Source: Armatimonadota bacterium (GTDB lineage: Bacteria > Sysuimicrobiota > Sysuimicrobiia > Sysuimicrobiales > Kaftiobacteriaceae). Taken from it: a DNA stretch of 64,000 nucleotides. The translations under genes and the position numbers were made by a program. How positions within the stretch are numbered: the stretch's first letter is position 1; every line of letters starts with the position of its first letter. Under the pieces are notes generated by a model. It had not been told where the DNA came from. It worked only from the letters and a program-made list of their open reading frames with translations, and did no database searches. The stretch lies in NCBI GenBank assembly GCA_031459765.1, contig JAVKHY010000001.1, positions 347,701 through 411,700 on the forward strand. Direction: 5' to 3'. Below are positions 3,246 to 14,205 of this stretch, in pieces.

Positions 3246-4187
3246 TCAGGGCCGGGGGTGTGCGGCGAAGAACTGCCAGATCACCTCGGTGGCGTTGATC
3301 TCCCTGCTCACGCGGCCCACGATCGCTCGAGGGAGATACTGGGGGCCGCCGGGCCAGGTGTGGCCGCCGCCTTCGATGGTGTACAGGACGACCGCGGTCT
3401 GCTCCGCGCAGGCCGTGTAGGCCGTTCTCTTCACGCGGGTCCCGTCGGTCGGAGCCGTCTCGGGCAGGGCGGAGACCTCGGGCGGGCCGGGGCAGCGGTT
3501 TGCGGCCGCCCACTTCCGGATGATCTCCTCCGTGGAGATCGTCTCACCGCGGTTGCGCGCCACCGGGCCGCCCTCGTAGGGGACGAGCGGGTCGTCCGTG
3601 CCGTTGATGACGAGGACGGAGACCGGCCGCTCCGGATGCAGCGAGGCGGCCACCGCCGGCGCCATCCCGGCGGCCACGGGGGCGATGGCCGCGAGGCGCG
3701 AGGACAGGCGCGCCGCCAGCAACTGCGACATGAACCCCCCGTTGGAGATGCCGGTGGAGAAGACCCGTCGGGGATCGACGGGATACTCTGTGGACAGCCG
3801 GGTGATCAGCGCCGCGATGAATCCCACGTCGTCGATCCCCTCGGCCTGGGCCCGGATGTGGGGATCGCCCCGGCCGTCGTTCCAGTTGCGCTCCCAGGCG
3901 TCGGGATAGACCACGAGAAAGCCGTGGCGATCGGCCAGCACGTTGAATCCGAAGCGCTCCATGCGCCTGCCGGTGCCTCCGCCTCCGTGCAGCACGAACA
4001 CCAGCGGAACGGCGCGGCCCGCCGGTAACGCTGGCGGCACGTACAGGAGGAACGTGCGGCGCACCCCCCCGATGTCGATGGTGCGGCTGACCGACGCACC
4101 GGTGGCCGGCGGGAGGAGTGGCGGCCGGGCCAGAAGGGCGAGGGCCGCGAGCAGCGACGTCCCGAGAACGATTCCGGCGCGTCTCAT
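3246..4187 (-). CDS. Secreted esterase, PHB-depolymerase/LpqC family
   Basis: 313-residue alpha/beta hydrolase with an N-terminal signal segment (RR, then a hydrophobic stretch to about residue 30), so probably exported. The oxyanion region is VLHGGGGTG. The nucleophile elbow is GISNGG (Ser about 148), the acid lies in NGTDDPLVPYEGG (Asp about 198) and the His in GGGHTWPGG (about 276). These motifs together define the poly(3-hydroxybutyrate) depolymerase-like LpqC group, which also contains feruloyl and acetylxylan esterases, so the exact ester is unknown. The stop directly abuts the selD reading frame; the ATG at 4187 is next to the selD TAG, and the two genes are probably co-transcribed. 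Confidence 0.87.
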   Translation of the reverse strand: MRRAGIVLGTSLLAALALLARPPLLPPATGASVSRTIDIGGVRRTFLLYVPPALPAGRAVPLVFVLHGGGGTGRRMERFGFNVLADRHGFLVVYPDAWERNWNDGRGDPHIRAQAEGIDDVGFIAALITRLSTEYPVDPRRVFSTGISNGGFMSQLLAARLSSRLAAIAPVAAGMAPAVAASLHPERPVSVLVINGTDDPLVPYEGGPVARNRGETISTEEIIRKWAAANRCPGPPEVSALPETAPTDGTRVKRTAYTACAEQTAVVLYTIEGGGHTWPGGPQYLPRAIVGRVSREINATEVIWQFFAAHPRP

Positions 4188-5234
4188 CTACGGCGCGACC
4201 TGGATGGTGCCGTCGCCTTCACCGGTAATATGCCCGATCTGCGCGGCAAGGACGTTCCGGCGGGCCAGGGCCGCGGTCAGGGCCTGGAGCCGCGCCGGCG
4301 GGACAGCCATGAGCAACCCCCCCGACGTCTGCGCGTCACAGAGGATCAACTGGTCGCCCTCGTCGAGCCCGGCGAAGTCGACGCGGGATCGCAAATATTC
4401 GTAGTTGCGGGCCGTCCCTCCGGCGATGGCGCCCTGTCGGACGAGGGTGCGGGCTTCCGCCAGGACCGGGATGGCGGTGTACGACAGTTGGGCACGCACG
4501 CGGCTGGCGGACGTCATCTCGTACAGGTGGCCGAGCAGGCCGAATCCGGTGACGTCTGTGGCGGCGTTCACCCCCACCTCGACCATCGCCTCCGCGGCGT
4601 CCCGGTTGAGCGTCTCCATCACCCGGATGACCTCGTCGATCGCCTGGGGTGACGTCTTCTCCTGCTTGATCCCCGTGGTGATGATGCCGATGCCCAGCGG
4701 CTTGGTGAGGACCAGGCGGTCGCCCGGTTGCGCGCCGACGTTGCGCACGATCCGGTCGGGGCGCACCACCCCCGTGACGGCCAGCCCGTACTTCGGTTCC
4801 GGGTCGTCGATGCTGTGGCCGCCCGCGATGAGGACCCCCGCCTCCCGGGCCTTGTCCGCGCCCCCCTGCAGGATCTCCTCCAGGACCGCCAGCGGCAGCT
4901 TTCCGCGCGGAAAGCCGACGATGTTCAGGGCGAGGATCGGCCGGCCGCCCATGGCATAGACGTCGGACAGCGCGTTCGCCGCGGAGATCGCCCCGTAGTG
5001 GTACGGGTCGTCTACGACGGGCGTGAAGACGTCTACAGTCTGGACGAGGGCGAGGTCGTCGGCGAGGCGGTAGACTGCCGCGTCGTCGACGGTGCTCGTC
5101 CCCACCAGGAGGTTCGGGTCGCTGGGAACCGGCAACCGGCGCAGGACCTGCGCCAGGTCCTCAGGACCGAGTTTGGATGCTCACCCCGCGCAGGCCACCA
5201 GCGCGGTGAGCCGGACGCGCTCCCGTGCCGTCAC
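4188..5234 (-). CDS. selD: Selenide, water dikinase, itself a selenoprotein (in-frame UGA = Sec18)
   Basis: Makes selenophosphate from selenide and ATP, the donor for Sec-tRNA and selenouridine. The body is textbook SelD: GTSTVDDAAVYRL, ALVQTVDVFTP, YAMGGRP, a Gly-rich ATP loop (IAGGHSIDDPEPKYG), and TDVTGFGLLGHLYEM. A conventional reading would start at a TTG at 5135 and lose the N terminus. Reading on past the TGA at 5183-5181 gives TALVACAG-U-ASKLGPEDL, which is the SelD active-site segment with the essential Lys three residues after the Sec. A GTG start at 5234 with AGGGGGTG upstream gives 348 residues, the normal family length, with Sec at 18 (Cys17 in E. coli). A TACAAT -10 lies at 5276-5271. 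Selenoprotein SelDs are known in other bacteria. Confidence 0.93.
5136..5168 (-). promoter_or_regulatory. Putative bacterial SECIS hairpins downstream of the selD UGA
   Basis: Two stem-loops follow the UGA. The first (5168-5156) is GGUCC-UGA-GGACC. The second (5156-5136) is a 9-bp stem CUGGCGCAG/CUGCGCCGG closing a GUC loop; its tip, GCAGGUC, matches the tip of the E. coli fdhF SECIS, where the loop G and U are read by SelB. The two hairpins share one base at 5156, so they may be alternatives. The second loop is about 34 nt from the UGA, farther than in fdhF but within the spread seen for bacterial SECIS elements. Confidence 0.5.
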
Positions 5235-5326
5235 GCCCTCACCCCCTTCCGGAGCCGACGTCACCCGTCGATTGTAGCATGGAGGCGGAGACCCGACGAC
5301 GAAGTCGCGCAGGGGAGGCTCCGATC

Positions 5327-6007
5327 ATGACGTTGCACCAGCTCCGCGTCTTCGCCACTGTGGCGCGACTGGGCAGTTTCTCGCGCGCGGCCGAGGAGCT
5401 GGGGATCACCCAGCCCTCGGTCAGCATCCAGGTCGCCGACCTGGAGCGGGATCTGGGCGTGGAACTGTTCCGGCAGGAGGGGAAGCGGATCGCCCTGACT
5501 CCCGCCGGGCAGGCTCTGGCGGAGTACGCTCCGCGGATTCTGGCCCTGGCCGACGAGGCCGTGGCCGCCGTCCGTCAGGCCGGCCGCGAACCCGTCGCTC
5601 CCTTCGAGGTCATCGAGCACACCTCGGAAGCGGGGATCATCGCCCGGGGACGGACCCTGCCCGAGGTGTTCGCCAACGCCGCCGCGGGCATGCTCTCCTT
5701 CATCATCTCTCCAGAATCCGTCCGCCCCGTTGAGTCGCGCCGGATCGTCGTCACCGCCGACGACCGCGAGGGGCTCCTCGTGGCGTGGCTGAACGAACTG
5801 CTCATCCTGCTCAACGGGGACGGCTTCATCCCCCGGGAATTCCGCATCGAGGAGCTGGAAGCTACGCGCCTTCAGGCGGAGGTCCGGGGCGAGCCGGTGG
5901 ATCCCGGGCGGCACCGCTTCCGACTCGATGTCAAGGCGGCCACCTACCATCAGCTCGAGATCGGCCGGGACGGCGGATGGTACGCGCGGGTCATCTTCGA
6001 TGTGTGA
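5327..6007 (+). CDS. LysR-type winged-helix domain fused to an archease domain
   Basis: 226-residue two-domain protein. Residues 1-62 are a LysR-type wHTH (MTLHQLRVFATVARLGSFSR, AAEELGITQPSVS, LTPAG), followed by the usual linker helix to about residue 90. The normal LysR effector-binding domain is absent. Instead residues 93-226 match archease, the activator of the RNA ligase RtcB: FEVIEHTSEAGI, LLVAWLNELL, HRFRLDVKAATYHQL and the C-terminal VIFDV. The metal-binding Asp of the HTxD motif is Glu101 here; the terminal Asp225 is kept. ATG at 5327 is preceded by AGGGGAGG. It diverges from selD and precedes serS. Likely a DNA-binding protein with an archease-type sensor or partner domain; no rtcB is in the window. 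Confidence 0.88.
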   Translation: MTLHQLRVFATVARLGSFSRAAEELGITQPSVSIQVADLERDLGVELFRQEGKRIALTPAGQALAEYAPRILALADEAVAAVRQAGREPVAPFEVIEHTSEAGIIARGRTLPEVFANAAAGMLSFIISPESVRPVESRRIVVTADDREGLLVAWLNELLILLNGDGFIPREFRIEELEATRLQAEVRGEPVDPGRHRFRLDVKAATYHQLEIGRDGGWYARVIFDV

Positions 6008-12283: not shown

Positions 12284-13273
12284 GTGCCCCTTTCGCCCGA
12301 GCTGGCCGTCTTCCTCATCGTCTCCGCCCTGGCCGCCACCTGGGTCCACACTGACTACCGGTCCCGGACCGACGGACCGTTGTGGGAGCGGATCGCCTGG
12401 TGGCTGGGCACGCTCCTGGCCCTGCCCATTTTCCTCCCCATCTACCTCGTGGCGGCCCGGCCGCCCGGCCGCCTGGTGCGCTGCCCGTCGTGCGGGCGAC
12501 TGACCCTGGCCCACCGCGCCGCGTGCCGCCATTGCGGCAACGCCATCGCCTTCGAACCCGGCCCGCGCCTGTGGGGTCTGTCCGAGGTGGCGGGGATCAG
12601 TCTCGCCTTCATCCTCACCCTGGCACTTGTGGCGCAGACGCTGGGCGTGGGGCCGGAGGTCTCGTTGCCGGAACTGGTGGCCTTCGCCACCCTCCAGAAC
12701 GCCCTGTTCATCGGCCTCACCCTCTACGTGGCGCGCATCCGCTACCGCCTGCCCGCCGCCACGCTGGGCCTGAGGGCGCAGCGGTGGCCCCTGTGGGTGG
12801 CCGGCGGTCTGATCGCCGGCGCCCTGTCCGTCCCGGTGAGCACCGGCGCCGAAGACCTGGCCATCACCATCATCGCCTTCTTCACCGGACGGGCCAGGGC
12901 GGAGGCGATGGCGGAGGAGGAGCATCTCAGGGACGTGCTGACCGGCATCCTGCAGGGACCGCTGACGGCGGGCCAGATCGTGTTGATCTTCCTCCTGCTC
13001 TGCGCGCTCGTGCCGGTGGGGGAGGAACTGTTCTTCCGCGGATTCGTCTACGGCGCCCTGCGCCGATGGGGAATCCCGCTGGCCAACGTCCTCTCCGCTT
13101 TCTTCTTCGCCGCCGTCCACCACCAGGTGGTGCACTTCCTGCCCGTCTTCCTCCTGGGGATCATCCTCGCCTGGCTGTACGAGCGCACCGGCTCGCTGCT
13201 GCCGGCGATGCTGGTGCACGCCCTGAACAATGCCGTGGCCATCCTGCAGACCCTCTACGGCTGGAAGTTCTGA
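12284..13273 (+). CDS. CPBP family intramembrane metalloprotease with zinc ribbon
   Basis: Integral-membrane protease-like protein (Rce1/Abi family). Hydrophobic helices near the N terminus flank a zinc-ribbon-like CPSCG...CRHCGN segment. The C-terminal half has the CPBP motifs: EELFFRGFVYGAL (glutamates and Arg), FFAAVHHQ (His) and HALNNAVA (second His/Asn). Such proteins cleave membrane peptides or prenylated-type substrates; the target is unknown. GTG 12284 is preferred because it leads straight into the first helix; the frame is open back to ATG 12227. It runs opposite to dnaX and the SRP RNA gene, sitting between them. Confidence 0.85.
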   Translation: MPLSPELAVFLIVSALAATWVHTDYRSRTDGPLWERIAWWLGTLLALPIFLPIYLVAARPPGRLVRCPSCGRLTLAHRAACRHCGNAIAFEPGPRLWGLSEVAGISLAFILTLALVAQTLGVGPEVSLPELVAFATLQNALFIGLTLYVARIRYRLPAATLGLRAQRWPLWVAGGLIAGALSVPVSTGAEDLAITIIAFFTGRARAEAMAEEEHLRDVLTGILQGPLTAGQIVLIFLLLCALVPVGEELFFRGFVYGALRRWGIPLANVLSAFFFAAVHHQVVHFLPVFLLGIILAWLYERTGSLLPAMLVHALNNAVAILQTLYGWKF

Positions 13274-13327
13274 GCCGGCTGGAAGAGCTGACGGCCTCCG
13301 GCCCGGGCCGGAGGGCGCCGGGTTCGG

Positions 13328-13594
13328 CCGTGCACCCGCCGTCGTCGACCGCCCTCCAGGCGGCTTCGGCGCCGCCGGCTCGGACCAGGTCTCCCCGCGG
13401 CACACGAGAGCCCTGACGTACCGTTGCTTCCTTCCGGACCTGGCGGGGTTGGTCAGATCTCGTTGCGCGGGACCCGGTCGTCGTCGCCGCGTGCGCCGGC
13501 CCGGCCCTGCAGAGCAGCGTCTCGGGCGGGAGTTCAGCCCCGCTGTAGCGGATTGCGGGTACAGGGAACCGCTAGCTCCCCGCCTAGCACGGCC
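13328..13594 (-). ncRNA. ffs/scr: Signal recognition particle RNA, large (Bacillus) type
   Basis: About 267 nt. The domain IV loop is unmistakable: CCAGGTCCGGAAGGAAGCA at about 13443-13425. The 5' part reads GGCCGTGCTAGGCGGGGAG then GGTTCCCTGTACCCGCAATC, the conserved Alu-domain sequence of Bacillus scRNA. The 3' end, GGTGCACGGCC, pairs with the 5' GGCCGTG to close the long helix. Presence of the Alu domain separates it from the short 4.5S type of E. coli. The ends are set by the closing pairing and may be off by a few bases. It lies near dnaX as in Gram-positives. Confidence 0.93.
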
Positions 13595-13656
13595 GTCTCC
13601 ATTGTACACCCGGCGCGCCCGCAGACGCCCCCGCGGGCGGAGGACGCCGGGGCCGC

Positions 13657-14205
13657 CTAGCGGGGGAGGAGGAGCCGGATCCGCTGCGGCGGCCAGTAGA
13701 TGAGGATGGCCTGGCCCACGATCTTGTCTTTCTTCAGGGCGCCGAAGGAGCGGCTGTCCTCGCTGTTGTTGCGGTTGTCGCCCATGACGAAGACCGCATC
13801 CGCCGGGACGGTGACGGGACCGAAGTCCCCCTGCGGCACCCCATTCACGTACGGTTCGGCCACCGGCATGTTGTTGATGAAGAGCCTGCCCTCTCTGAGT
13901 TCCAGCCGATCCCCCGGAAGGGCGACGATGCGTTTGATGTAGTTGCGCTCGGGGTTGAGGGGGTACCGCAGGACGATCACGTCGCCGCGGCGGGGCTGCC
14001 GCAGGCGGTGCAGGAATTTGTCCACCAGCACACGATCGTGGGGGAGCAGCGTGGGCTCCATGGAGTACTGCTCCACCTGGAAGGCCTGCGCCACGGAGAC
14101 CATGATCAGCTGCGCCAGGATGAAGGCGATGATCAGGGTCTTGGCGAACTCCCACAACCCGCCCGCCGCCCTGCGCCAGATGGGCCTCGTCGAGGGTGCT
14201 TCCAT
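13657..14205 (-). CDS. lepB: Signal peptidase I
   Basis: 182-residue inner-membrane serine protease that removes signal peptides from secreted proteins. One N-terminal membrane helix (residues 18-40) is followed by box B with the catalytic Ser (QYSMEPTL, Ser48), box D with the catalytic Lys (NYIKRIVALPGDRLELREG, Lys91) and box E (FVMGDNRNNSEDSR). Short, single-helix form as in Gram-positives and thermophiles. ATG 14205 is chosen; the frame stays open upstream but that part is Arg/Ala-rich noise and would overlap the CRP-type site. Confidence 0.96.
   Translation of the reverse strand: MEAPSTRPIWRRAAGGLWEFAKTLIIAFILAQLIMVSVAQAFQVEQYSMEPTLLPHDRVLVDKFLHRLRQPRRGDVIVLRYPLNPERNYIKRIVALPGDRLELREGRLFINNMPVAEPYVNGVPQGDFGPVTVPADAVFVMGDNRNNSEDSRSFGALKKDKIVGQAILIYWPPQRIRLLLPR

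Follow-up and report, generated by a model that had tools for sequence, protein, structure and literature searches.

Selenophosphate synthetases (SelD) that carry selenocysteine (Sec) in the active site are encoded by a well-known kind of bacterial gene. In the described bacterial enzymes (TIGR00476; PMC1794560, PMC13188914), a catalytic Sec near the N-terminus is followed three residues later by a Lys, an arrangement that a 2026 review gives as the SelD motif UxxK, the bSECIS element lies inside the coding region and the genome encodes the Sec machinery. It has also been reported that all Sec-decoding organisms without the formate dehydrogenase FdhA have a Sec-containing SelD (PMC1794560). 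For the bacterial phylum CSP1-3, named Sysuimicrobiota in a survey of its genomes (PMC11604079), we found no report of selenoproteins in the literature searched, and the words "seleno", "selenium" and "SelD" are absent from the main text of that survey. Here we describe a selD gene from a member of this phylum, located in a 64,000-nucleotide stretch of DNA that was analysed as a whole (the window) and belongs to a 2.8 Mb genome that is 99% complete in 29 contigs. The gene shares with the described enzymes the protein family, the N-terminal catalytic position, the Lys at +3, a hairpin inside the coding region and a genome equipped for Sec, and we consider it nearly certain that it is a selenoprotein gene whose UGA codon 18 is decoded as Sec by the organism's own SelA, SelB and tRNASec(UCA), with a bSECIS directing the insertion. 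What is new is the description of such a gene in Sysuimicrobiota, the sketch of a selenoproteome and a CxxU arrangement of the active-site loop. An earlier inspection of the letters alone, hereafter the sequence-only reading, had likewise seen the novelty in the host lineage and the implied selenoproteome.

The selD gene and its in-frame TGA

The selD gene occupies positions 4188-5234 on the minus strand, running from a GTG start (5234-5232) to a TAG stop (4190-4188) and encoding a predicted protein of 348 residues. Its frame reads VTARERVRLTALVACAG-U-ASKLGPEDLAQVL... and contains a single in-frame TGA, codon 18 (5181-5183, minus strand), within the motif ACAG-U-ASK. When U was treated as Cys, the protein matched TIGR00476 with 409.8 bits (cut-off 125) over residues 8-314, and U18 aligned with the active-site Cys of the SelD structures 3u0o and 2yye, with Lys21 three residues further on. 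Frame, motif, family match and structure alignment thus agree with the sequence-only reading, which had put the TGA on the catalytic Cys/Sec position and the Lys three residues beyond it in CAG-U-ASKLGPEDL. It had also been right that, without Sec, the gene would seem to begin at a TTG and lose its active site, as the longest open reading frame under the standard code comprises 315 residues from the TTG at 5135 and lacks the active-site motif. Its proposal of a GTG start with a strong ribosome site held for the start codon and the length of 348 residues, but the site itself is only fair, the purine-rich stretch GGAAGGGGGTGAGGGC-GTG being plausible and imperfect; a relative from the same genus (L095) has a perfect GGAGG-type site ahead of the ATG of selD. 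Two features count against the Sec reading: the frame ahead of the TGA is just 17 codons long, and codon usage by itself would miss the gene, its TGA having ranked 31st of 587 in a codon-usage scan for TGA-containing genes in the window. The two best candidates of that scan were rejected as gene ends running into the next gene.

We compared SelD across 43 genomes of the order, the window's genome included. The N-terminus was covered in 37 of these, and all 37 carry TGA at the same codon, which excludes a TGA arisen by chance. Moreover, the 17 codons that make up the whole coding stretch upstream of the TGA are conserved as protein across the order, so that the N-terminal comparison proposed along with the sequence-only reading came out in its favour. 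In two further genomes (G002, G042) the match comprised just a C-terminal piece of SelD, and the search of the 43 genomes yielded no clear SelD in G022, G031, G036 and G040. Outside Sysuimicrobiota, many bacteria likewise have TGA at this codon, and Nitrospirae, Bacteroidales and others have TGC or TGT.

Divergent from selD, the plus strand at 5324-6007 encodes a LysR-type helix-turn-helix (PF00126, residues 4-63) fused to an archease (PF01951, residues 94-227), with no LysR effector domain. The same fusion occurs in G001, G006, G008 and G009; G004, G005 and relatives more distant than these have a full LysR protein and a separate archease side by side, adjoining selD. Judged by their titles, none of the papers that our search returned had an archease-LysR fusion as its subject.

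Sec machinery and the hairpin downstream of the TGA

The search for selA, selB and a tRNASec with UCA anticodon that had been suggested together with the sequence-only reading was successful in the window's genome. All three are clustered on the minus strand of contig C4 (242123-245481, open frames), apart from selD on contig C1. The selA match scored 578 bits, selB 350 bits (in two pieces within one frame) and the tRNASec 81 bits, with anticodon tca. Across the order, 33 of the 43 genomes gave a tRNASec match above 60 bits. The near-complete genome G011 counts against the Sec reading of selD: its selD keeps the TGA, its selA is split over three overlapping frames (L156 = G011:C12:37000-47000), and no tRNASec was found near this locus, nor any above 47.3 bits genome-wide. 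Either the Sec trait has decayed in this relative or its sequence contains errors. Among the other relatives, neither selA nor a clear selD was found in G022 (95% complete), and G028 has TGA in selD and fdhA, yet no selA match was found there; either the Sec trait was lost or contigs are missing. Contig C34 of G039 harbors a second, distant SelD without TGA (3962-4954), a second tRNASec-like match (5051-5142) and an FdhA with TGA (13205-13978), forming a separate Sec island that derives either from transfer or from contamination.

In the fdhF gene of E. coli, the bSECIS consists of a short G+C-rich stem and a small apical loop starting with GGUC. A hairpin of the same build lies in selD, where UGGCGCA-GGUCC-UGCGCCG (5137-5155, minus strand) forms a 7-bp stem and a 5-nt loop at nucleotides 26-44 past the UGA, and the GGUC apical loop is also present in the phylum's own Sec-fdhA genes. 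Unlike in the fdhF type, the selD loop is farther from the UGA, at 32 nt, close to the maximum under the published bSECIS rule, which allows 16-37 nt and calls for an apical loop of 3-9 nt with a G at one of its first two positions, then G or U. The loop GGUCC conforms to this rule, and its base pattern is kept in 33 of 36 distinct sequences and broken in the other three. Among selD relatives, UGGCGCA-loop-UGCGCCA recurs at the same distance from the UGA. Over 24 sequences, 93.5% of cells were paired as compared to 19-51% when the structure was slid, a control that allows for kinship but favours a structure drawn from the same sequences. None of 500 shuffles, which ignore kinship, reached the covariation score; two pairs changed on both sides, with U-A or C-G replacing G-C, as exemplified by the Pedosphaera record L051, a count that 70 of the 500 shuffles also reached. 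We therefore rate the covariation as good but not overwhelming. Synonymous sites point to the same element: their diversity at stem codons 26-28 and 31-32 was 0.12-0.33 of expectation vs a mean of 0.91 in the rest of selD, and the reduction over codons 19-34 had a permutation p of 0.01. We relied on covariation and synonymous-site conservation because folding energy gave a weak signal in a selD of such high GC content, which counts against the Sec reading. Compared with synonymous recoding, it was only weakly lower (mean z -0.93) than elsewhere in the gene (-0.19), and the window's own sequence gave a value close to zero. A proximal hairpin, GGUCC-UGA-GGACC, was rejected as the SECIS core; it is present in the window's family and lost in L103, L109 and L113.

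These data bear on three other explanations of the TGA. Were it a true stop, SelD would be a shortened protein starting downstream, for example at TTG 5135, and missing the active-site loop. This is what the standard code yields, and later-starting SelD-like paralogues do exist as weak matches in the wider AIRS superfamily. We nevertheless regard a true stop as very improbable, given that the 17 codons ahead of the TGA are conserved as protein throughout the order, that the active-site Sec/Cys and the Lys would be missing from every genome, and that the window's genome has the complete Sec machinery. A pseudogene or sequencing error would take a single base change from TGC or TGT, but the recurrence of the TGA in all 37 covered genomes, each assembled separately, as well as across many other phyla already refutes this idea, and its probability is negligible.

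Just as remote is the view that TGA serves as an ordinary sense codon, such as Trp or Cys, through an altered code or a suppressor tRNA. A sense reading would open the selD frame equally well, but the genome has a dedicated tRNASec, SelA and SelB, and TGA falls at chemically apt sites, namely in SelD and in the TPGU motif of a peroxiredoxin, and in formate dehydrogenase and GrdA of relatives. Furthermore, the best other TGA-joined frames of the window are merely the end of one gene plus the next gene. Decoding of codon 18 as Sec is thus the preferred reading, and the predicted selenoprotein would carry Sec at position 18 and act as a selenophosphate synthetase.

Placement of the partner cysteine

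The sequence-only reading had the Sec and the Lys of the SelD motif in place, but the unusual placement of the accompanying cysteine, CxxU and not UxCK, had gone unnoticed; it is the most unexpected trait of the gene. Whereas most sampled Sec- and Cys-SelDs have a Cys at +2 relative to the catalytic residue, the window's SelD has Ser at +2 and a Cys at -3 (Cys15, codon 5190-5192, minus strand). Among 93 SelDs, a sample drawn by similarity to the window's SelD, 36 have the Cys at -3 without one at +2 (C-A-G-U-A-S/A/G-K), 55 have it at +2 without one at -3, two carry no Cys at either site and no SelD carries it at both. Sec is encoded in every one of the 36 members of the -3 class. According to the SelD tree, three to five changes of Cys placement are needed, with one independent pair on supported branches, and with this single pair the mutual exclusion of the two placements fell short of significance once kinship was taken into account; the pattern may reflect true exclusion, being suggestive, not proven. 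The SelDs of Desulfosporosinus (L044, L053) and Geomesophilobacter (L064) share the -3 arrangement, reading SCAGUAAK with TGA-encoded Sec and no Cys at +2, but form a supported tree group separate from Sysuimicrobiota.

One tentative interpretation, which we think somewhat less probable than its converse, is that in a subgroup of Sec-SelDs including all sampled Sysuimicrobiota the partner Cys has moved from +2 (UxCK) to -3 (CxxU), where Cys15 and Sec18 would pair as a thioredoxin-like CxxU redox couple. If true, CxxU enzymes would be reduced, or given selenide by a carrier protein, through an exchange route that differs from that of UxCK enzymes. The choice between CxxU and UxC provides a simple handle for testing the way in which the SelD loop becomes reduced or loaded.

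Selenoproteins of the genome and its relatives

To place selD among other selenoprotein genes, the genome-wide selenoproteome was sampled family by family. The window's genome encodes a BCP/PrxQ-like peroxiredoxin (C3:318231-318611) with TGA at the peroxidatic position, RDATPG-U-TAEATAFRDD, and the six further genomes that this search covered in the family all have TGA there too. Its FdhA is a Cys form (NVDCCARVCHAPS), and formate dehydrogenase alpha subunits with TGA occur in many other CSP1-3 genomes. The window's genome thereby resembles the Sec-decoders without FdhA described in PMC1794560, combining a Sec-SelD with an FdhA in Cys form. For glycine reductase, GrdA with TGA was found in 11 of the 43 genomes (G008, G013, G015, G018, G026, G027, G030, G032, G037, G039 and G042, with two matches each in G039 and G027), and no GrdA was found in the window's genome in this search. 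Several relatives have AhpD/CMD-like genes with TGA, at weak scores; in the window's genome, no TGA-containing member of the thioredoxin and CMD/AhpD families was found. Since no selenouridine synthase exceeded the cut-off in any of the 43 genomes, SelD appears to be used mainly for Sec in these bacteria. With FdhA in Cys form, GrdA absent and no selenouridine synthase, we had considered that SelD might be the sole selenoprotein, serving itself, an idea refuted by the TGA-containing peroxiredoxin. SelD would instead make the selenophosphate required both for the Sec that it contains itself and for one or more other selenoproteins, this peroxiredoxin among them.

A practical consequence for this phylum is that SelD would be truncated by standard gene callers, and the genes for the peroxiredoxin, formate dehydrogenase and GrdA would be broken as well. 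The phylum survey assigns formate dehydrogenase and the reductive glycine pathway to these bacteria (PMC11604079), and its main text mentions neither selenium nor "glycine reductase" or "grd". With TGA in formate dehydrogenase and GrdA genes, formate metabolism in many members and glycine reduction in some are probably selenium-dependent, which would bear on metabolic reconstruction and on the choice of cultivation media.
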